From a virus, in IMG/VR virus record IMGVR_UViG_3300049489_000453, positions 1-30,999 of that record: 30,999 nucleotides of DNA. One strand, given 5' to 3'. Position numbers and translations under genes: made by a program. Of the stretch, positions 3,526 to 13,166 are shown piece after piece. Numbering within the stretch: position 1 is the first letter of the stretch; the number at the start of each line of letters is the position of its first letter. The notes under the pieces are model-generated. The model saw only the letters and a list, made by a program, of their open reading frames with translations, was not told the DNA's origin and ran no database searches.

Positions 3526-3783
3526 ATGAAAACCATCTATATAGAATCCCTAGCAGCAGCCAGAAAGAAAATGAAAGAACTAGCCTATGTCAAAATAGCA
3601 ATCCTTTTCCGCAATCTAAACGAAAAACCAATAGCCGCATGGGTTCCTAACGGCCGAGACGGCGGCGAGTTTATAACACAGTCAGATATTAAGAAGCGGC
3701 CAAATATGCCGATTCCGCATAACTTTATGGGTAATCAAGATGCGTTCTATATAGTTAGAGCAGCAGCCCTAAAGGAAAAATAG
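3526..3783 (+). CDS. small alpha/beta protein, unknown function
   Basis: This encodes 85 residues starting at an ATG after ACAGGAA. It begins with a strand and helix (TIYIESLAAARKKMKEL), has a middle strand (YVKIAILFRN), then a Pro/Gly/Asn-rich segment containing GRDGGEF, and ends in a strand plus a helix (AFYIVRAAALKEK). It is basic and soluble with no known motif. The sequence after its stop folds into the hairpin that masks the next ribosome site. Function unknown. Confidence 0.65.
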   Translation: MKTIYIESLAAARKKMKELAYVKIAILFRNLNEKPIAAWVPNGRDGGEFITQSDIKKRPNMPIPHNFMGNQDAFYIVRAAALKEK

Positions 3784-3806
3784 ACTTTACCTGAAAATAA
3801 AAATAT

Positions 3807-3837
3807 AATTCCTCTAAACACAATTAGGGGAATTTTT
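3807..3837 (+). promoter_or_regulatory. terminator-like hairpin that encloses the ribosome site of the next gene
   Basis: AATTCCTCTA (3807-3816) pairs with TAGGGGAATT (3825-3834) over 10 bp with one G-T pair and an eight-base loop, followed by a T-run (3833-3837). The right arm contains AGGGGA, the only Shine-Dalgarno sequence for the ATG at 3839. The structure can therefore act as an attenuator or as a lock on translation of the exported protein and, by coupling, of the glycosyltransferase. Confidence 0.5.
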
Positions 3838-3838
3838 A

Positions 3839-4177
3839 ATGTTTAAAAAACTAGCTTTTGCTTTATGTATTTCAACGCCTACTTTTGCTGGGTCTACTGC
3901 ATCTTTTAGCCTAAAGCTTGTCGAAAACAACCCAAACCAAGACACAGTCGTTGGATTTTCCTTAGCTCAACCGATTGGATTCGGCTTAGGATATTGGACT
4001 TGGTTAGGGATGGGAACCCTAGGCAATGATATTAAGTGGGTTGAAAATACTCAGGCTTTGGATTTTAGTTTTACCAAAGACGTTAAAATCACCGCTGCGG
4101 TTAAACTTTCAGAAGACATAGCAAGCGAAGACTTTAAAGACGAATACTCTTTAGGCATTAAGCTTAAACTGTGGTAG
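3839..4177 (+). CDS. small exported beta-rich protein, possibly outer-membrane
   Basis: This encodes 112 residues. The first 17 form a clear signal peptide: MFKK, a hydrophobic core, then TPTFA with likely cleavage before Gly18. The mature part alternates polar and hydrophobic residues in strands (TASFSLKLVE, DTVVGFSLAQ, ALDFSFTKD, VKITAAVKLS, YSLGIKLKLW) and ends in an aromatic residue, as outer-membrane beta-barrels do. At about 95 mature residues it would be a very small barrel, or would have to oligomerise. The stop overlaps the glycosyltransferase start by seven bases, so the two are almost certainly co-produced. Function is inferred only: a surface or receptor-modifying partner, or a superinfection blocker. 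Confidence 0.7.
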   Translation: MFKKLAFALCISTPTFAGSTASFSLKLVENNPNQDTVVGFSLAQPIGFGLGYWTWLGMGTLGNDIKWVENTQALDFSFTKDVKITAAVKLSEDIASEDFKDEYSLGIKLKLW

Positions 4178-5619
4178 AAAAATCTAAACATTCCTATCTG
4201 ATTCCCGGTGTCATTAGCTTTGGGCTTTTGACGCTGGGCGCTTATTTTTTCGCGACCTCAAGGCCAGAACTTTATATTTTTGCGCCCTTTTTCGGGGTTA
4301 TTTTTACATATTTGACAATATCTTATGGGATACTTTTTGCCGGTAAAAAATACGTAAAAGCTAAATTTCCTGAGATAAAAGAATTTCCTACCGTTGACGT
4401 ATTTCTTCCCATTTGTGGCGAGAATACCACGATCATACTTGATGCCTGGAGGCATACTTCAAAGCTAGATTGGCCTAAAGACAAGATCAATTTCTACGTT
4501 TTAGACGATGGAAAGTCTGACACGATGATGATTCTAGCGCAATCTTTTGGCTTTCATTACATCCGTAGAGAAGGTAATGAATTCAAAAAAGCAGGAAATC
4601 TTTTAAATGCTTTTAAAAGAACCAATGGCCAGTTTATATTGGTTTTAGACGCTGATTTTGCAGCCAAGCCAAACTTTCTAAAAGAAACCGTCGCATTTAT
4701 GATGAGCGACTCTAAGATTGGCATCGTTCAAACGCCGCAATACTTCGAAGTCAAAGACGATATGAATTGGATAGAAAGGGGATCGGGATATGTTCAAGAG
4801 TTGTTCTATCGGCTTGTACAAACTTCTAGGGATCTTCACGGCGGTTCTATTTGCGTCGGCTCTTGTGCTGTGTATCGTAGGGAAGCATTGGAAAGAGTTG
4901 GCGGCTTCCGGCAAGTGCAACACTCGGAAGACGTATGGACTGGATTCACGCTGGTTAGCAGCGGATACAAAATCAAATATATCCCCGAGAATCTCTCGGT
5001 AGGTAGATGCCCTGACAATTTGAAAGCTTTCTTTAACCAACAATACCGTTGGTGTTCTGGCAGCATGAGCCTTTTGTTTAGTAGAGAGTTTTGGGACTCT
5101 TCCTTAACGAAGATGCAAAAACTTTGCTATTTTAGTGGAATGGCGTATTACATCAGCTCGGCCATAGGCATCTTTCTTCTAAACATACCATCGATGATCA
5201 TTGTGAATTTCTACCCTGAGAACCTTCATTGGTGGAACATGGTTTTTTACGTCCCATCGTTTCTATTTGGCTCAATCGGAGTTTGGCATTGGTCAAATTA
5301 CCCAAACAAAGATTTTGATTTTCTTAAGCTTAGACATGTCAGCTATTACGCTCACTTCTTTGCTTTAAGGGACAAGCTTTTAAACTCGACGATGCTCTGG
5401 GTTCCTACCGGAGCAAGTCATAAGGGAGGCAGTAGATATGCTTCGTTTCTTTGGCTTTGTAGCATTTGGTCTACTTTATGTTTGCTATTTGTGCTCTACG
5501 GCGTGGCGAAGGCTTATGGCCAGGTTCCAACAATTAACTTGATCATGCCAGTATTATTTGGGCTCTTTAACTTTTGGCTGTCAGCTTCTAGCATTCTGAA
5601 TAGAAACCCAGTAAACTAA
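4171..5619 (+). CDS. membrane glycosyltransferase, family 2, processive cellulose/hyaluronan-synthase type
   Basis: This encodes 482 residues from a GTG start overlapping the previous stop. Two N-terminal membrane helices (about 10-28 and 35-57) precede a cytosolic GT-A domain with every hallmark of processive beta-glycan synthases: LDDG at 111-114, LDAD at 159-162 (metal binding), HSED at 251-254 (catalytic base) and QQYRW at 290-294 (acceptor-channel Q-x-x-R-W). Further membrane segments follow (about 320-345, 355-375, 430-450 and 458-478). No PilZ c-di-GMP domain is present, unlike BcsA. It should transfer a UDP-sugar to a growing polysaccharide or a lipid-linked acceptor at the host inner membrane. 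In a phage this suggests altering the host surface, for example serotype conversion or superinfection exclusion, but the sugar and acceptor cannot be read from sequence. Confidence 0.9.
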   Translation: MVEKSKHSYLIPGVISFGLLTLGAYFFATSRPELYIFAPFFGVIFTYLTISYGILFAGKKYVKAKFPEIKEFPTVDVFLPICGENTTIILDAWRHTSKLDWPKDKINFYVLDDGKSDTMMILAQSFGFHYIRREGNEFKKAGNLLNAFKRTNGQFILVLDADFAAKPNFLKETVAFMMSDSKIGIVQTPQYFEVKDDMNWIERGSGYVQELFYRLVQTSRDLHGGSICVGSCAVYRREALERVGGFRQVQHSEDVWTGFTLVSSGYKIKYIPENLSVGRCPDNLKAFFNQQYRWCSGSMSLLFSREFWDSSLTKMQKLCYFSGMAYYISSAIGIFLLNIPSMIIVNFYPENLHWWNMVFYVPSFLFGSIGVWHWSNYPNKDFDFLKLRHVSYYAHFFALRDKLLNSTMLWVPTGASHKGGSRYASFLWLCSIWSTLCLLFVLYGVAKAYGQVPTINLIMPVLFGLFNFWLSASSILNRNPVN

Positions 5620-5644: not shown

Positions 5645-5690
5645 CGGCCATTGGCCTAGCGGACTGGCACCCGAGGCTCACAACCTCGGG
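5645..5690 (+). other. tRNA 5'-half-like sequence merged with a terminator
   Basis: TGGCCTAGCGG (5652-5662) fits the tRNA D-arm consensus T-R-G-Y-N-N-A-R-N-G-G. GCC at 54-56 pairs with GGC at 66-68 as a D stem. The following 7-bp hairpin carries loop CTCACAA, which read as an anticodon loop would be CAC (Val). The stem is two pairs too long, and there is no T-arm or 3' acceptor, so this is not a functional tRNA. It is either a tRNA-derived relic or a chance likeness. Confidence 0.3.
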
Positions 5691-5698
5691 ATTTTTTT
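5670..5698 (+). terminator. intrinsic terminator after the glycosyltransferase
   Basis: A perfect GC-rich 7-bp stem, CCCGAGG (5670-5676) with CCTCGGG (5684-5690), has a seven-base loop and is followed by A and seven Ts. It closes the exported-protein/glycosyltransferase cassette. The GGAGG ribosome site of the next gene starts directly after the T-run. Confidence 0.8.
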
Positions 5699-5708
5699 GG
5701 AGGCATGG

Positions 5709-6368
5709 ATGCTCTACTTAAAAGACGAATATTTTGAAAATACCGACTTCCGAGAGCTAAATATGTGGAGTACGTCTTACGGCGGAGAGCGCGCTCCTAG
5801 AGATCAACTTCTAGGCTTCAGGTTTCTTGAAGCTTGCGAAAAGTTTAAGGTCAAAAACGCCCTAGCTCTCTGGGTTTACGGAGCCACGGTCACTAGTTGG
5901 TTTAGCCGAGCACCGAAGGATAGATACGGTCAAGTACGTTGGTGCGAAGCCCTGGCCTCTGAGTACGCAAGACTAGGCGATATTAGACTATTACCCTTAA
6001 CCGAGGATGAGCGCGTGATAATGACTTTAGTTTGGACTCAAGCATCTGCCAGGCTTAACGAGTACGCTAAGTTTAAGAAACCAGTAGAGCCTAAACTTCC
6101 CACTAAGCCCGAGCCTATGCCTCAACCCAAACCGGTTGAGAATGGGGGAAAAAAAGAAGCGGAAAAAGAGCCAGAAAAAAAGAGTGAACCTATCCCTACA
6201 GACAAAGAAAGCACTGTCGAAGTGGAAGACAAAAAGACAATGTGGCGAAGATTGATAGGCTCTATCGCAGGTGCCTTGTCTTTTGTGGTTGACAAAATTC
6301 CTATCCCTTTGCCAATTAAATACGTGGTTAAGATCATACTGACCGCTATTGCTACTTTCTTCAAATGA
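5709..6368 (+). CDS. two-part protein with hydrophobic C-terminal hairpin, unknown (holin-like topology possible)
   Basis: ATG 5709 follows GGAGG by five bases and is preferred over the in-frame TTG at 5697, giving 219 residues. Residues 1-122 form a helical, Trp- and Arg-rich domain without known motif. Residues 123-175 are a Pro/Glu/Lys linker (repeated P-K-P-E-like units). Residues 178-219 are hydrophobic, with two short candidate membrane segments (RLIGSIAGALSFVV and IKYVVKIILTAIATFF) separated by a Pro-rich turn. This layout could be a membrane-anchored effector or an unusual holin, but the amidase lies 4 kb upstream and no family is recognised. Confidence 0.65.
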   Translation: MLYLKDEYFENTDFRELNMWSTSYGGERAPRDQLLGFRFLEACEKFKVKNALALWVYGATVTSWFSRAPKDRYGQVRWCEALASEYARLGDIRLLPLTEDERVIMTLVWTQASARLNEYAKFKKPVEPKLPTKPEPMPQPKPVENGGKKEAEKEPEKKSEPIPTDKESTVEVEDKKTMWRRLIGSIAGALSFVVDKIPIPLPIKYVVKIILTAIATFFK

Positions 6369-6670: not shown

Positions 6671-7369
6671 TTATGAGGCCATGGCATTTAGGTTAAATAC
6701 TTTTAATATGTCATGGCCTTTTAAAATTCTTTTATACGCAGCAGAATAGCTAAAATTATAAATCTCGCACCATTCTGCGAGAGTTTTTGTTTGACAACAA
6801 ATTTGTATTTTAAGATTTGTTCTTCTATTTCTTGATTGTTCTTTCGCAGTGGCCCACCTAATATTTCCAGGTTCATAGCCGAGAGCGTTGTCTATTCGGT
6901 CAATAGAATGAGAATCAGACGGGCTTGGACCAACATAGTCATAAAAAGCGCAAAAATCATTTATCCAAGGTTCATACATTTTTATACCTCTTCCACCGTA
7001 GCGGTCATAGGCATGGGCAGTAGTTTTGTAGCACCTTGCTTTTATTTTGCACCATATATTATGTTCTCGGCTTTGGCTTAACCTTCGCTCTCCTCTTTCT
7101 GCACGATATAAAACATTTGACCATTCAACATTTCCAGGCTCAAAACCTTTTGACCTATCAATTCTTTGAAAATAATATTTACCTTCAGGATTTGGTCCGA
7201 TGTCGTCCATAAAAGAAATGCAGTCGTTTTTCCATTTCTCGCACATTGTTATACCTGAACCGCCATTTTTCGGGTATTCAGGATGATTTTTGTTGTAACA
7301 AACCTGCATAATCCTATCCCAAACCTTGTATTCTTTCGTTCCTCTTTTATTGTGAACTCTTATAGACAT
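6671..7369 (-). CDS. HNH-like (homing-type) endonuclease with tandemly duplicated domain
   Basis: This encodes 232 residues and is the only leftward gene. Residues 102-185 carry the pattern W-x-x-I-x-x-R-C-Y ... YGGRGIKMYEPW ... SIDRIDNALGYEPGNIRWAT-x-x-EQ-x-x-NRR, typical of phage HNH-family nucleases. Residues 12-97 are a second, more diverged copy (KVWDRIMQVCYNK ... NGGSGITMCEKW ... FQRIDRSKGFEPGNVEWS). Residues 193-222 look like a small helix-turn-helix DNA-binding tail (TLAEWCEIYNFSYSAAYKRI-x-x-G). The start at 7369 has a GGAG upstream. Reverse orientation, AT-rich codons and tail-to-tail placement against a phage gene suggest a mobile insertion. The first copy keeps RID but has lost the S-x-D-x-I-D-N context, so it may be inactive. 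Confidence 0.78.
   Translation of the reverse strand: MSIRVHNKRGTKEYKVWDRIMQVCYNKNHPEYPKNGGSGITMCEKWKNDCISFMDDIGPNPEGKYYFQRIDRSKGFEPGNVEWSNVLYRAERGERRLSQSREHNIWCKIKARCYKTTAHAYDRYGGRGIKMYEPWINDFCAFYDYVGPSPSDSHSIDRIDNALGYEPGNIRWATAKEQSRNRRTNLKIQICCQTKTLAEWCEIYNFSYSAAYKRILKGHDILKVFNLNAMAS
6676..6722 (+). terminator. long hairpin between convergent genes
   Basis: AGGCCATGGCAT (6676-6687) pairs with ATGTCATGGCCT (6708-6719) over 12 bp with one G-T pair and a 20-base loop, followed by a short T-run. It overlaps the last codons of the endonuclease gene. It probably ends rightward transcription from 6407; on the other strand no T-run follows. Confidence 0.55.
6815..7336 (-). repeat. two diverged copies of a domain inside the HNH-like gene
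   Basis: Bases 7336-7079 (residues 12-97) and 7066-6815 (residues 102-185) encode aligned segments. They share W at the start, R/V-x-C-Y, (N/Y)GG-x-GI-x-M, W, D-(Y/I)-(I/V)-GP-(N/S)-P, RID and GFEPGN/GYEPGN then V/I-x-W. The similarity is seen at protein level; nucleotide identity is low, so the duplication is old. Confidence 0.7.
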
Positions 7370-7547: not shown

Positions 7548-8285
7548 ATGAAACAATTTTTGATTGTTCCAGATTGCCATTTTCCTTTCCATGACCTTAA
7601 ATATATTAACTTTATAACCCGACTTTTATCTTATCTAAAATCCACAGGAAAATTAAAGGGGCTTGTCCAGTTAGGAGACGCCCTTGATTTTTTTCAGGTT
7701 TCTACTTACCCAAAAGATCCGGCCAGAAGAAACTCAATCAAAGATGACATGGATGATTATTTAGGCATCGTCAATCTTTGGACTACGTATTTACCAAAGG
7801 GCGGCGAATATCATCAAATCGAAGGAAATCACGAATACAGACTACAGAAATATATTGCCAACAACGCCAAGGAAATCTATCAGCTCGTCACTTCAGTAGA
7901 GTCTTATTTGTCCACAAGATTTAAGTCCAAGAATCACAAATTTATTTGGCACAAATACACAAAATGGGATTCTCTTAAGATCGGGGACGTAAACATTCTC
8001 CACGGCTTCTATTATAATCAGCACGCGGCCGCAACAAATTTAGCCAAATACAAAACCAATATTATAACAGGACATACGCACCGCCTTCAACTTATCAGCG
8101 ACGGAAAGCATTACTCGGCAACCCTTGGTCACGGGTCGGACGAAAAAGAGACAGCACACAACCCAGTCCCGAGCGGATGGCAGCAATCTTGTGCGGTTCT
8201 TACCCTACTTGATTCCGGCAAAACTAATCTAGAAATCATTCTTGTAAACGCTGGAAAGGGAATATATGCAGGCAAGCAAATCTAA
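7548..8285 (+). CDS. calcineurin-like metallophosphoesterase
   Basis: This encodes 245 residues starting at an ATG after GAGGAAG. All metal-binding blocks of the family are present in order: D9-x-H11, GDALD at 43-47, GNHE at 93-96, LHG (His152) and GHTH at 175-178. It should hydrolyse a phosphomono- or phosphodiester, such as a nucleotide, nucleic-acid end or phosphoprotein, with two metal ions in the cytosol. It opens the late operon just ahead of an HExxH protein and the terminase genes, and its end overlaps the next start by 20 bases. Such enzymes occur in phages, but the substrate cannot be deduced here. A role in DNA-end handling before packaging is a guess from context. Confidence 0.9.
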   Translation: MKQFLIVPDCHFPFHDLKYINFITRLLSYLKSTGKLKGLVQLGDALDFFQVSTYPKDPARRNSIKDDMDDYLGIVNLWTTYLPKGGEYHQIEGNHEYRLQKYIANNAKEIYQLVTSVESYLSTRFKSKNHKFIWHKYTKWDSLKIGDVNILHGFYYNQHAAATNLAKYKTNIITGHTHRLQLISDGKHYSATLGHGSDEKETAHNPVPSGWQQSCAVLTLLDSGKTNLEIILVNAGKGIYAGKQI

Positions 8286-8580
8286 TATTCCTACAAGTAT
8301 AACGATCCTTGGTAAGAAAATTAAAATTAGAAAGCCTAAAAAACTTGTCGACCAATCCGGGAACGAGCTCTTTGGTTTGTTCGACCACGACAAGATGATT
8401 ATTTATGTTTCACAAAGTAAAGACCACGACATCAATTCTACTTTTTTCCACGAGTGTATTCATGTTGCCTTGTTTATTTCTGGCCATAATGAGACGCTTG
8501 AACACGAGCAAGAAGAGGCAATCGTCCGCCTTCTTGAACACGCTTTATTTCCTATTTTAGGAGAACTCAAATGGAACTAA
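8266..8580 (+). CDS. small zincin-type (HExxH) metallopeptidase-like protein
   Basis: This encodes 104 residues, overlapping the phosphoesterase by 20 bases. The motif HECIH at 62-66 sits in a helix after a segment with two beta strands (SITILGKKIKIR, MIIYVSQS), followed by a second acidic helix (HEQEEAIVRLLEHAL) that may supply a third zinc ligand. This compact layout resembles the minimal zincin domains of ImmA/IrrE and SprT type found in phages. It would bind one zinc ion and may cleave a protein, but such small domains are not always active. The stop overlaps the next start. The peptidase role is inference from one motif. Confidence 0.65.
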   Translation: MQASKSNIPTSITILGKKIKIRKPKKLVDQSGNELFGLFDHDKMIIYVSQSKDHDINSTFFHECIHVALFISGHNETLEHEQEEAIVRLLEHALFPILGELKWN

Positions 8581-8807
8581 TTAAGGTCAGACTTGCCGAC
8601 AAGTTCACTTATATCAATATTGAGAAAATTCTTTTCTTCGAGGAAAACCGGGTCGGGTTTACAGAACTTCACCTAGACTCGGGCGAGACTTTGGTTATTC
8701 CTATCGAGCCAGAACAGCTTGCGATTATGCTTACACGCGGGCCTGAACAATACGACCACGATAGCAAGGCTTTGACACCCGCGGACTTAACTGCTATTTT
8801 CAAATAA
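8571..8807 (+). CDS. small beta-strand protein, unknown function
   Basis: This encodes 78 residues. ATG 8571 overlaps the previous stop by ten bases and its own stop overlaps the TerS start (TAATG). Residues 1-50 form four probable strands (LIKVRLADKFTYINIEKILFFEE, FTELHLDSGETLVIPIE), reminiscent of small one-domain regulators of FlbD or LytTR-like fold, but the likeness is superficial. The tail is polar and helical. Function unknown; its place directly before the terminase suggests a packaging-linked or regulatory role. Confidence 0.6.
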   Translation: MELIKVRLADKFTYINIEKILFFEENRVGFTELHLDSGETLVIPIEPEQLAIMLTRGPEQYDHDSKALTPADLTAIFK

Positions 8808-9298
8808 TGGCTAAAAGAAGAAACAAAGAACCAGAACCGTCCAGTAAACAGGCGGCATTTAACGCCGAAGTAGATCGTTATATCGCTGCAGGTATGTCGA
8901 GCCATTTCATAGCCGACAAGTTCAACCTACCGCTTGAGTCTACCGAAAACCTGATACGGATTAGAACCGAGGCCGTAAAGAATAGCGCAAGCAATCAAAG
9001 AATCCTTTTAAGGCAACTTTTCAGGGACGCCGTCCCGCGTGCGGTTAATAAAATTAATAGCCTAATCGGTGGCGACTACGAGAAGACAGAGGCAGGGATC
9101 GAAAACGCTCTTTTGCAAATGAAGGCGAGCGACATTCTTCTTAAACACGCCGTTAAATTTATAGACGAGGACGTTGTAACCGCTTGGATCGAGCGGCCTA
9201 CCTTTGCGCAAGAAAAAAACAAACTATTTCAATATACGGCCGAGATCGATTCGTCTGGTTCGGTTATTCTTTCGGCAGAAGTTGAGGACGATATATGA
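8807..9298 (+). CDS. probable terminase small subunit
   Basis: This encodes 163 residues directly before the large terminase, sharing a four-base ATGA overlap with it. The N-terminal third is basic and helical, with a helix-turn-helix-like stretch (VDRYIAAGMSSHFIADKFNL, about residues 27-46). The middle is helical and could oligomerise, and the C-terminus has beta strands (SSGSVILSAEVEDDI), which in TerS proteins usually contact the large subunit. TerS recognises the packaging site on phage DNA and controls the motor. The assignment rests mainly on position and overall layout. Confidence 0.6.
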   Translation: MAKRRNKEPEPSSKQAAFNAEVDRYIAAGMSSHFIADKFNLPLESTENLIRIRTEAVKNSASNQRILLRQLFRDAVPRAVNKINSLIGGDYEKTEAGIENALLQMKASDILLKHAVKFIDEDVVTAWIERPTFAQEKNKLFQYTAEIDSSGSVILSAEVEDDI

Positions 9299-10800
9299 CG
9301 CGAGTCCCTAGATACGACATGATTCCTAAACTTTTCAAGGACGACAAGCCTGCTGGGACTAGCGAGCCTTTTAAAATCAAACTACCGGCGCCGTATCACG
9401 ACTGGCAAAAAATGCTAATCAACTCCAAGATCAAGCTTATGGTTTTTCCGTGTAGCACAAAAGTTGGGAAGTCTATCGCCGGTTCGTCGCGGCTAATTAT
9501 AAACAGTTTTAGCGCGCCGCGAGGACAAGACGCTCTGTATAGAGTTATAGCACCGACTTACGCTTTGTCAAAAATTACTTATCAATATCTAAATAGGCTT
9601 GTCCCTGAAAACCTGCCTCAGGCAAATATAGTGGATTATGAACGGGTAAACGAGCACTGGAAATCTTTCACTCCCGAACGATCCGAGCACGCTGGTTATT
9701 TTAGATGGAAACATAACGGCTCTATGGTGCAGTGTGTTCACGGAGACAACCCAGAAGTTACGATCGAAGGCGCGAGGGTCTACGGGAATTGTTTCGACGA
9801 GGCAGCCAAGTTAAAGCGTCAAGTATTTGACTCGGCAATGTCTACGACGACTCAGACCGGAGGCTGGAACTGCCTTTACGGCACGCCGAGAGGCAAAAAC
9901 TGGTATTACGAACTGTTTAGAGAATGCCGTGAGCACATGGAGTGGGCGCACAGAACCGGCAAACCTCTTGAAATGTATGCCGCCCAAGCGCGCACGATCG
10001 ACAATCCTTTCGTACCAAAAGAATCAATCGAGCGAGCCAGAAAACATTTACCGGATAGAATCTTTAGACAGCTTTTTGAGGCCGAGTTTTTAGACGACGG
10101 ATCCGTTTTCATAGGCTACAAGGATTGCGTTTTTGGGGATAAGATAGAATTCGAGCCAGACCAAAAGGTTCAAATCTGGACAGACCCGGAATGCGATACC
10201 AGGGAAGTCGTAATCGGAGCCGACTGGGCAAAGCGTGACGACTATTTTGTTGCAGCCGCAATAGATCCGACACATAACCCGCCGAAAGTTGTAGGAATTA
10301 TAAGAACTACGCACGTCGATTATACGGCCTGCATTAGACTTCTTTACAATTTCACCAAGAAATTTAAGAGCGTTTACCTAATCCGACACGACCGCACAGG
10401 TGTCGGCGATGTAATTGACGAAATGCTGCAGCCGCTAGGGATTCATATAGAGCCTATTGTTTTTACAAACGCAAGCAAGGCGCATCTTGTGGAGCGCTAC
10501 CTTGTTGCTCTACAGGGCAAAGACGTAATTATTCCGAACTGGAAAATCCTTCTCGACGAGCACGACACCTACGACGCAACGGTTACGGCCACAGGATTGC
10601 CTAAATATGGTGCAATCTCAGGAAGTCATGACGATATAATCACGGCTTTAATGCTTGCCTACTCTGCTGCACACGAGATGCGAGACCGTCACCTAGAGGT
10701 TCGAGCACTAGAAGACCTGGACAAAGATCACGATTACGTGGATCATTTCTCTAAAATAATTTCTGAATTTGAAGATAGCTACGATTCGGAGTACAATTAA
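9295..10800 (+). CDS. terL: terminase large subunit (packaging ATPase and nuclease)
   Basis: This encodes 501 residues. The ATPase domain shows a Walker A-type loop CSTKVGKS at 53-60, a Walker B with catalytic acid VYGNCFDEA at 162-170, and a coupling-motif-like YGTPRG at 195-200. The nuclease domain has the RNase H-like acid in VVIGADWAKRDDYF (Asp310), a second acid in IRHDRTGVGD (366 region), and a third in SHDDI at 444-448. It cuts concatemeric DNA and drives it into the prohead through the portal. Length and motif order are typical of phage TerL. The Walker A has Thr-Lys-Val instead of the usual Gly/Arg-rich loop, within the known variation. The next gene starts four bases after its stop. 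Confidence 0.93.
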   Translation: MTRVPRYDMIPKLFKDDKPAGTSEPFKIKLPAPYHDWQKMLINSKIKLMVFPCSTKVGKSIAGSSRLIINSFSAPRGQDALYRVIAPTYALSKITYQYLNRLVPENLPQANIVDYERVNEHWKSFTPERSEHAGYFRWKHNGSMVQCVHGDNPEVTIEGARVYGNCFDEAAKLKRQVFDSAMSTTTQTGGWNCLYGTPRGKNWYYELFRECREHMEWAHRTGKPLEMYAAQARTIDNPFVPKESIERARKHLPDRIFRQLFEAEFLDDGSVFIGYKDCVFGDKIEFEPDQKVQIWTDPECDTREVVIGADWAKRDDYFVAAAIDPTHNPPKVVGIIRTTHVDYTACIRLLYNFTKKFKSVYLIRHDRTGVGDVIDEMLQPLGIHIEPIVFTNASKAHLVERYLVALQGKDVIIPNWKILLDEHDTYDATVTATGLPKYGAISGSHDDIITALMLAYSAAHEMRDRHLEVRALEDLDKDHDYVDHFSKIISEFEDSYDSEYN

Positions 10801-10804
10801 TAAA

Positions 10805-11002
10805 ATGGCTTTTGTAACTTATTTAAAACACGGCGAAGGAATCAAGATCGGCGAAGCCGTTTTTATTCTACAAAGCGAACGCGGCGCCCGCATTGTTTTA
10901 GAAGTAGACGACAAAGTCGTAATTACAAAGATGACAAAAGAGGAAGTAAACAATGGCCGATGGCGTAAAAAAGCGAAAATCAAAAGCGAAGTCAGCGAAT
11001 GA
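10805..11002 (+). CDS. CsrA-like small RNA-binding protein (tentative)
   Basis: ATG 10805, just after the TerL stop, gives 65 residues; the frame runs further upstream inside terL, but that has no ribosome site. Residues 8-43 match the CsrA/RsmA strand pattern: G-E-x-I-x-IG-(E)-x-V-x-I ... G-x-x-I-x-L-x-V ... VVITK, followed by a T-K-E-E-V helix, as in CsrA's GESI-IGD ... VRLGI ... V-x-R-x-EI. CsrA dimers bind GGA motifs in mRNA leaders. The conserved CsrA Arg near the start of the last helix is Lys or missing here. The gene overlaps the portal start by 50 bases; its basic tail (RWRKKAKIK) lies in this overlap. Confidence 0.45.
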   Translation: MAFVTYLKHGEGIKIGEAVFILQSERGARIVLEVDDKVVITKMTKEEVNNGRWRKKAKIKSEVSE

Positions 11003-13166
11003 TTTTGATTTTGAAGAATTTGAGCACACCGATTATCGCTTAAAATATATAGACGGAAACGGCGCCCAAGGTGAACCGGATCAACCTTTTTGGGCATCTG
11101 AAAACAAAGCATATGCCGACTTACAGACGATTAAAAAACTTTTCTTTTCCGAGGACTGGGTTTTCTCGACCGTTGACGCCGTTGCTCAACCTATAAGCAC
11201 GATACCAATTCACGTCTTTAGAACACAGATGGTCGACGGGCAAGAAGAAAAAACAAAAGTTCGCTCGGACACGATTAGCAAGATATTTAATCAGCCGAAC
11301 CGTTATCAAACTAAGTCACACTTGCTTTATTGCCTTGCGGCCGATTATCTTTTAACCGGAAACTGTTACGCTTGGCGTTCCGAGTCTGGGTCTTTGTATC
11401 AAATCCCAGCCGAGAACGTGATTTATAACTTTGGCAAAGATGCACTCCCTAGCGGTTATCTTGTTATGACCGATTCGGAGAACGGACTGCCTACGGTTCG
11501 TCATTCGATTGCTTTGAATGCCATGGCGCACGCTAAAAGGCCGAATCCTTCGAGCGCAATCTACGGTCTTTCTCCGTTCGTTCCTGGTCGTCGCTCGGTT
11601 TTGTTTAATCGTTACTCGTCCGAATACCTAAACAATTTCTATTTAAAGGGCGCAAGTCCTCAGTGGATTCTAGAAATGGCGGCCGACGCCAACGAAAAGG
11701 CAGTCGGGAAACTTCTTTCTAGCTTTGAGGCTTCCTACGTAGGGCGCAGGAACCAGCGGCGGACTTTGATTTTACCTCGCGGGGTTTCTGCAAAACCTTC
11801 CGAGACTAAGATTGCCGACCAGCAGTTAAAAGACTTGATTACAATGAACCGTGAAAACATTCTAGCGGTTCTTAAGGTTCCTAAACACGTTCTTGGTTTA
11901 CAAACTAGCGGCTCTCTTGGCTCGGAAGAACACAAGCAGGCTCTTAAATATTTCTGGCAAACCACGGTCACAGATACAGCAAAGGCAATCGCTCAGTCCT
12001 TGACGCAAGTATTTTTTCCTAACGGGGAATACAGTATCGAGTTTGATTTTTCCGAAATAGCAGAACTTCAAGACGACGAAATGCAGAAAGCTTTATTGTC
12101 TAAAGAGCTTCTTAACATTATGACGCCAAACGAAGTTCGCAAAAAAATTTGGAAGCTTGACGCAATAGAAGGAGGCGACACGATTGCGAGTTTTCAGCCC
12201 AAGCCTGCTTTTAATCAATTCGGACTGTCAGAACCTGAACAAATTCCAGAACCTGAGCCGGTAGTAAACGAGACGAAAAACCTTTTGACTTTTAATTTTA
12301 ATGAAAACCACAAAAAGGCTATCGACAAAAGCGCACAAGAGACAAAAAAAATAGAAAAAGAATCTTACGCACAACGATTTTCTGCCGCTACGAAGCTTAT
12401 TACTAAGCAGATCGAGACCGCACTAGACGTTATTAATCCTGGGTCAAAAGCGGATTTAAATAAAAAAGAAATTAAAAAGAAATTAGTAGATACCTTTAAG
12501 GAAATGGAATCTGACTACGTAAATGAGGCTGATAAAGACTTAATTGGCACGGCAGAACTTGGCTACGACAAACAAGTCGACCTTGTTTTTGACGAGCAGG
12601 CTAAAGAAGCCCTTGCAGCGGCTAAGGAAAAAGACGCAAAAGGACGCCGTAAACTTTTAACGGACCGCAATCTTTTTAGCTTTAAATCGGCCACTAAGAC
12701 AAATACAGAAAACATCATGTACGAAGTCGAACGCGGGATAAAAGAAAGTCTATCTATATCTGACGTGTCTAAAAATATAGCGCAGTATATGAAAGACAAC
12801 CTTAAGTGGCGCTCCGATATGATGGCTCGCACGGAAACCCTTACAGCACTTAGCGTCGGACAAGACTCTGTTTTAAAACAAGCCAAGGCGTCAGGTATTA
12901 AGAAAATGAAAAAGGTCTGGGTTTCTGCTGCCGACGAGCGAGTTAGATCAGCACACGCCGACGCGATGGGACAGACAGTAGATTCGGACAGTCCTTTTAT
13001 AGTTTCAGGCGAAAAGCTTATGTATCCTAGAGCACCGGGCGGATCGGCTGGCAACGTGATTAACTGCCGTTGCGACATGCTTATGATTCCTAGCGACGAG
13101 ATATCAGACTACGATCAAGACATAGAAAATTTAGAAGAACAACAAGAACAAAACAGAGGAGATTAA
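10953..13166 (+). CDS. portal protein fused to MuF-type minor head domain
   Basis: This encodes 737 residues starting at an ATG after GAGGAAG, inside the preceding gene's end. Residues 40-420 match HK97-type portals: WVFSTVDAVAQPISTIPIHVF, LLTGNCYAW, the NNFYLKGASPQWILEM block, the ILAVLKVP helix and a C-terminal region with NIMTPNEVRK. The portal forms the dodecameric DNA gate at one capsid vertex. A charged helical stretch (430-590) leads to a MuF/SPP1-gp7 domain with MARTET at 624-629, VSAADERVRSAHADAMGQ, then PGGSAGNVINCRC ending at 707. These two functions are usually separate genes, so the fusion ties a minor head or ejection protein to every portal subunit. It is much longer than the usual 400-500-residue portal. 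Confidence 0.9.
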   Translation: MADGVKKRKSKAKSANDFDFEEFEHTDYRLKYIDGNGAQGEPDQPFWASENKAYADLQTIKKLFFSEDWVFSTVDAVAQPISTIPIHVFRTQMVDGQEEKTKVRSDTISKIFNQPNRYQTKSHLLYCLAADYLLTGNCYAWRSESGSLYQIPAENVIYNFGKDALPSGYLVMTDSENGLPTVRHSIALNAMAHAKRPNPSSAIYGLSPFVPGRRSVLFNRYSSEYLNNFYLKGASPQWILEMAADANEKAVGKLLSSFEASYVGRRNQRRTLILPRGVSAKPSETKIADQQLKDLITMNRENILAVLKVPKHVLGLQTSGSLGSEEHKQALKYFWQTTVTDTAKAIAQSLTQVFFPNGEYSIEFDFSEIAELQDDEMQKALLSKELLNIMTPNEVRKKIWKLDAIEGGDTIASFQPKPAFNQFGLSEPEQIPEPEPVVNETKNLLTFNFNENHKKAIDKSAQETKKIEKESYAQRFSAATKLITKQIETALDVINPGSKADLNKKEIKKKLVDTFKEMESDYVNEADKDLIGTAELGYDKQVDLVFDEQAKEALAAAKEKDAKGRRKLLTDRNLFSFKSATKTNTENIMYEVERGIKESLSISDVSKNIAQYMKDNLKWRSDMMARTETLTALSVGQDSVLKQAKASGIKKMKKVWVSAADERVRSAHADAMGQTVDSDSPFIVSGEKLMYPRAPGGSAGNVINCRCDMLMIPSDEISDYDQDIENLEEQQEQNRGD

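Follow-up and report, generated by a model that had tools for sequence, protein, structure and literature searches.

A two-gene cassette carried by a phage probably forms a self-contained system that makes and exports an extracellular polysaccharide, a reading to which we assign a probability of about 0.7. The cassette lies in a 30,999-base virus record (IMGVR_UViG_3300049489_000453), referred to here in full as the window, which also contains terminase, portal and capsid genes. Its first gene encodes a small exported protein of 112 amino acids (positions 3839–4177), predicted to consist of a signal peptide and a mature part of ~94 amino acids, with homologues in 15 further phages. Its second gene, with a GTG start, encodes a BcsA-like processive GT2 synthase of 482 amino acids without a PilZ domain (4171–5619). 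Both genes, like all features given below, are on the + strand. As the preliminary description had stated, the GTG start of the synthase overlaps the stop of the small gene (ctGTGgTAG); the shared 7 nt, GTGGTAG, are at 4171–4177, an arrangement consistent with translational coupling of the two genes. A second phage, L002, keeps both proteins (83% and 68–69%) and the identical 7-nt overlap, there reading ATGGTAG. Comparison of the two synthase genes gave a dN of 0.14 and a saturated dS of 4.3, values that indicate strong purifying selection. Conservation of the proteins and of the overlap, together with the low dN, shows that the gene pair is not a product of chance.

The synthase was compared with known families by sequence and by structure. 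Pfam GT2 models matched it with E values of 1.9e-22 and 3.5e-21. The top NCBIfam model was CelA, with 212 bits against a cut-off of 699.1 bits; the protein falls below this curated cut-off because the alignment is limited to the catalytic core (model positions 95–423 of 714). E. coli BcsA was the top PDB sequence match (E 3.6e-43), and Foldseek ranked BcsA first for the AF2 model as well (E 4.5e-20). A VIA comparison of the model with BcsA gave a Z of 21.6 and an rmsd of 5.5 over 415 residues, with HAS at a Z of 17. PcManGT and the hyaluronan synthases stood lower than BcsA in the PDB rankings by sequence and by structure, and no GtrB-type protein was a best match. The model, of moderate pLDDT (66), is close to HAS in size and shows two transmembrane helices, then a GT-A domain with interface helices after it, and finally about four more transmembrane helices. 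The two N-terminal helices, seen in both the model and the hydropathy profile, span residues 10–30 and 32–65 (4198–4365). No PilZ domain was matched by Pfam, and the protein terminates after its last transmembrane helix.

The complete motif set named in the preliminary description was confirmed in this membrane protein: DDG at residue 112 (4504–4512), the Asp pair that binds the nucleotide sugar; DAD at residue 160 (4648–4656), the DxD of metal/UDP binding; SED in place of TED as the catalytic base, in HSED 251 (4924–4932); and QQYRW at residue 290 (5038–5052), the QxxRW signature of processive synthases. In addition, WVPTG (5398–5412) aligns with the FxVTxK gating loop of BcsA and BgsA. With helices flanking the GT domain, this alignment fits a channel-like layout, although in a model of pLDDT 66 only. 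Catalytic motifs, gating-like motif and QxxRW are invariant or nearly so across the 16 phage synthases, with S252, E253 and D254 and likewise W410 and G414 of the gating-like motif identical in every row of the alignment. The clade is marked by three substitutions, FxVTxK to W-x-[PA]-T-G, FFCGS to [IV]C[VC]G[ST] and TED to SED.

The small protein starts with a hydrophobic stretch, behind which lies a plausible site for signal peptidase I, and it ends in ...LGIKLKLW. Inspection of the 16 homologues bore out the signal peptide and the terminal Trp reported earlier; the last residue is Trp in 14 of the 16, with Phe in L130 and Trp-Asp in L121. The family alignment contains the signal peptide, six amphipathic strands and a central W-x-G motif. 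Hydrophobicity alternates in the six strands, and insertions and deletions fall mainly between strands 1 and 2, 3 and 4, and 5 and 6. This pattern suggests an outer-membrane beta-barrel, which would need to oligomerise since it has only six strands. In the last strand, positions −2, −4 and −6 are the hydrophobic ones, a shift by one residue from the register typical of outer-membrane proteins. Because the AF2 model of the small protein was useless (pLDDT 36), the barrel assignment is drawn from the sequence pattern; it also presupposes a host with an outer membrane. Searches of Pfam, PHROGs and the PDB returned nothing convincing for the family, and direct homologue searches with the small protein of the window as sole query were empty. 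In genomes drawn evenly from two phyla, the small gene was found in none of 398 Pseudomonadota and none of 194 cyanobacteria; as a positive control, an earlier small-protein profile detected three phage records.

The two genes are linked wherever the phage family was found. Scans of IMG/VR with a three-phage and then a seven-phage synthase alignment opened the family, and 18 non-actinobacterial viral contigs, representing 16 distinct phages including the window, carry a synthase of the clade. A homologue of the small gene lies upstream of the synthase in all 18, so that the shared neighbourhood for which the preliminary description had proposed a search is kept in every phage homologue found. 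It was beside the synthase in none of four viral contigs of actinobacterial type; L003, L086, L087, L118 and L132, which are of this type (G+C about 0.65–0.70 where measured), were omitted from the count of phage pairs. Among the 16 cassettes, the genes overlap by 4–10 nt in eight and are separated by 3–12 nt in six, while the remaining two have one intervening gene, for a DNA methyltransferase (L122) or a Fis-type HTH protein (L125). Leave-one-out HMMs built from the first seven small proteins recovered members in other loci with E values of 1e-11 to 1e-24. Distances between the small proteins correlate with those between the synthases (Mantel r 0.84, or 0.74 without close pairs; p 1e-4), and by this measure of sequence divergence the two proteins co-diverge. 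A gene for a UDP-sugar dehydrogenase lies upstream in two of the 16 cassettes only, L134 and L085 (where it is cut by the contig end), and hints at the substrate.

The position of the cassette in the phage genomes varies. Some copies adjoin lysis genes, some lie in recombination regions, and in others, such as that of L128, the neighbours are terminase on one side and head-tail connector on the other; the phage genes around the cassette include RecT, RecE-like, lysozyme, terminase and tail collar genes. The 54-kb phage G001 has these two genes alone in common with the window, while G002 shares lysis-region genes in addition to the cassette. With its varied sites and its own predicted promoter and terminator, conserved in two phages, the cassette looks like a moron. 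Integrase genes occur in three of 12 further cassette records, which makes it probable that some of the cassette phages are temperate; the window, G001 and G002, possibly fragments, yielded no integrase gene. Relatives of the portal, tail and primase proteins indicated no consistent host. HNH-like genes border the region of the lysis cassette in the window (6671–7369) and in the L002 region (62% identity between the window and G002), and may help module exchange. Downstream of the cassette, at 5697–6368, the window encodes a 223-aa protein whose middle part is rich in Pro and Lys and which has a membrane helix at its C-terminus; it had no family match and has a counterpart after the cassette in L002 (62%).

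Expression signals were predicted on either side of the gene pair. A sigma70-like promoter, TAGACT-N17-TATAAT, is an exact match at 3781–3809. Since the pattern by itself is not above chance, the promoter call carries weight because the position is conserved, with an equally placed counterpart in L002 at 7614–7642. An 11-pair hairpin at 3807–3834 (MFE −12.6, z −4.5) begins inside the −10 box and takes in the Shine-Dalgarno sequence of the small gene. RNA started from this promoter, with a predicted start at ~3815, would be without the left arm of the hairpin, and the fold would be lost. The L002 leader has a counterpart (z −2.5) in which different bases are paired. Leader hairpins that occlude the Shine-Dalgarno sequence (z ≤ −2) were predicted in eight of the 16 cassettes and in seven of 150 control genes taken from these contigs (odds 20, p 5e-6, the relatives not being independent). 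Comparable structures at genes e, soc and 49 of phage T4 act against early read-through (PMC3014915). The occluding hairpin thus suggests that mistimed expression of the cassette is harmful. Behind the synthase, an intrinsic terminator is predicted at 5670–5690 (CCCGAGG-CTCACAA-CCTCGGG followed by a T-run), with the same stem in L002 at about 9499–9519. This stretch of the window resembles the 5′ half of a tRNA, with CTCACAA as an anticodon-like loop. A tRNA-Val remnant at 5645–5690 was considered and rejected, as both ARAGORN and Rfam were negative and the L002 loop does not fit a tRNA, leaving a plain terminator.

A scan of ~85,000 species genomes gave closest cellular homologues of the synthase at 39–45% identity, chiefly in Streptomycetaceae and Leptolyngbyaceae. 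In the tree, the 16 phage synthases form one group (85/84), for which support is only fair, within a 100/100 clade of PilZ-less synthases; they cluster with the Streptomyces and Leptolyngbya enzymes, and BcsA and BgsA stand next to this cluster. The Streptomyces enzymes share the clade, ~40% identity and the same gating-like motif with the phage synthases, whereas their loci have a GH26-like neighbour and, in those tested, lack the small exported protein. Of 65 synthase loci, nearly all of the Streptomyces type, 61 have a GH26-like gene nearby and 40 have one for UDP-glucose dehydrogenase. In L003 and other loci of this type, a GT2 synthase, a GH26-like hydrolase, a PMT-like glycosyltransferase, a UDP-glucose dehydrogenase and a DPM-like gene are conserved together, a neighbourhood for which we found no description in the literature consulted. 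L087 encodes a 1284-aa fusion (7551–11405) of a PilZ-less GT2 synthase with acyltransferase-3 and SGNH domains, adjoining a GH26 gene; its product is probably an O-acetylated polymer. The idea that CslZ of Streptomyces is a mannan synthase was wrong, as CslZ is a glucanase (PMC11022532).

Compared with BcsA/BcsB, the phage system has the same GT2 core with DDG, DxD, xED and QxxRW, a predicted membrane channel, and the combination of a synthase with an envelope partner. It differs in the absence of PilZ, a shorter membrane part, SED for TED and WxPTG for FxVTxK, and in place of BcsB/BcsC it has an unrelated partner of ~100 amino acids. In BgsA/BgsB, too, the gene of a GT2 synthase is paired with an upstream one for an envelope protein, but the partner is of HlyD type, unlike the small protein of the window. 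Cyanophage S-CBWM1 (L084, 6349–9701) has a similar unit, gp157-gp158, annotated as an efflux-pump membrane protein and a putative cellulose synthase, and thus shows that a phage can carry a synthase with an envelope protein. It looks like an independently acquired BgsB-BgsA mixed-linkage glucan unit. A 100/100 split in the tree separates gp158, on the BgsA side, from the window synthase, so BcsA-like synthases have probably been acquired by phages at least twice. The chlorovirus hyaluronan and chitin synthases and the CelA-like protein A473L are also polysaccharide synthases encoded by a virus; their hosts, however, are eukaryotic, and we know of no small partner for them. A viral entry of 520 aa in BFVD, M1HTG7, is 40% identical to the window synthase. 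PBCV-1 encodes a UDP-glucose dehydrogenase as well as its hyaluronan synthase, and the polymer coats the infected cell (PMC7019647). Chloroviruses are the nearest viral precedent, and the advantage of their hyaluronan coat is not yet established (PMC3946568, PMC5408694).

From these data we infer, on good grounds, that the cassette makes a surface glycan. The expression signals support a first step in which the cassette would be transcribed from its own promoter, while RNA reading through from upstream would be silenced by the hairpin that hides the ribosome site of the small gene, as at T4 gene e. Motifs, model and tree point to a GT2 synthase in the inner membrane that would add nucleotide-sugar units singly and thread the chain through its own channel like BcsA, working without c-di-GMP control via PilZ. 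The exported small protein, as an oligomeric beta-barrel or another beta-meander, would then lead the chain through the outer envelope and so fill the role of BcsB/BcsC, PgaA/PgaB or BgsB. More speculatively, the polymer might change the cell surface during infection or lysogeny, the likeliest benefit being that receptors are masked against other phages. We offer only as a tentative proposal, at well under even odds, that the small protein represents a new class of tiny oligomeric outer-membrane channel serving one polysaccharide synthase, in a system that phages have evolved or kept and swap as a surface-remodelling weapon.

Other roles for the small protein were weighed against that of exporter. 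The leading one, possible though clearly a minority view, is a periplasmic partner that activates, primes or anchors the synthase in the manner of BcsB, GlxA or BgsB, with export left to host porins or no outer-membrane export needed. Synthases of BcsA type generally require an envelope partner, and an HlyD-like partner adjoins the BgsA-like synthases, and S-CBWM1 has a comparable pair; GlxA is the partner of CslA (PMC11022532). The strand and loop pattern of the small protein is, however, more barrel-like than that of a globular adaptor, and neither kind of solved structure matches it. We regard it as unlikely that the protein is instead a surface blocker, that is, an outer-membrane protein for superinfection exclusion that adds to the effect of the glycan. 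Its signal peptide, beta-rich character, C-terminal aromatic residue and variable odd-numbered loops, as if exposed at the surface, would fit such a role, and superinfection-exclusion genes are common among morons. Yet the small gene strictly accompanies the synthase gene, diverges in step with it and overlaps it in half of the cassettes, which argues for one shared machine, and the viral scans never met the small gene without a neighbouring synthase.

Doubts about the synthase itself carry less weight. It is improbable that it makes a short lipid- or capsid-linked virion glycan, or a seroconversion sugar of Gtr type, rather than a long exported polymer. Some viral glycosyltransferases do modify virion proteins, as in chloroviruses (PMC5408694), and the GtrA/GtrB/GtrC cassette of P22, like the present one as proposed, alters a surface sugar from a phage genome, but it transfers a single lipid-linked sugar. 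Against a short product stand QxxRW, SED, the gating-like motif and the channel-like membrane part. Moreover, the window synthase has no significant similarity to P22 GtrB (BLASTP E 4.5), GtrB contains none of SED, QxxRW and the gating motif, and no flippase-like, GtrA-like or GtrC-like ORF was recognised beside the synthase in the window. The absence of GtrB likeness and the conserved linkage together support the earlier claim of a processive synthase coupled to a small exported protein and distinct from GtrAB. Least probable of all, and already disfavoured, is that the phage contigs have picked up the two genes as metabolic DNA of the host, with no function for the phage. Relatives of the synthase do occur in Streptomyces and cyanobacteria, but the pair is present in 16 distinct phage contexts, the synthase is under purifying selection, and the small gene was absent from both sets of sampled genomes.

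The enzyme class is known, as is the idea of a polysaccharide synthase carried by a virus; in the literature searched we found no description of a phage-wide synthase pair with a dedicated exported partner. Phages are known to remodel the cell surface mainly through Gtr-type glucosylation, changes of O-antigen polymerase and small blocking proteins. A recurrent processive synthase with its own partner would add synthesis of a whole polymer to these means and would be a bacterial parallel to chlorovirus hyaluronan. If the proposed system is correct, ~600 amino acids encoded by two genes would form a complete line from synthesis to export at the surface. The pair is far smaller than the known polysaccharide secretion systems of Gram-negative bacteria and is consequently a good subject for the study of minimal export needs, and the 16 diverse versions of the cassette allow direct testing. 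Taken together, the results suggest that phages carry their own compact set of genes with which they coat or modify the surface of infected bacteria.
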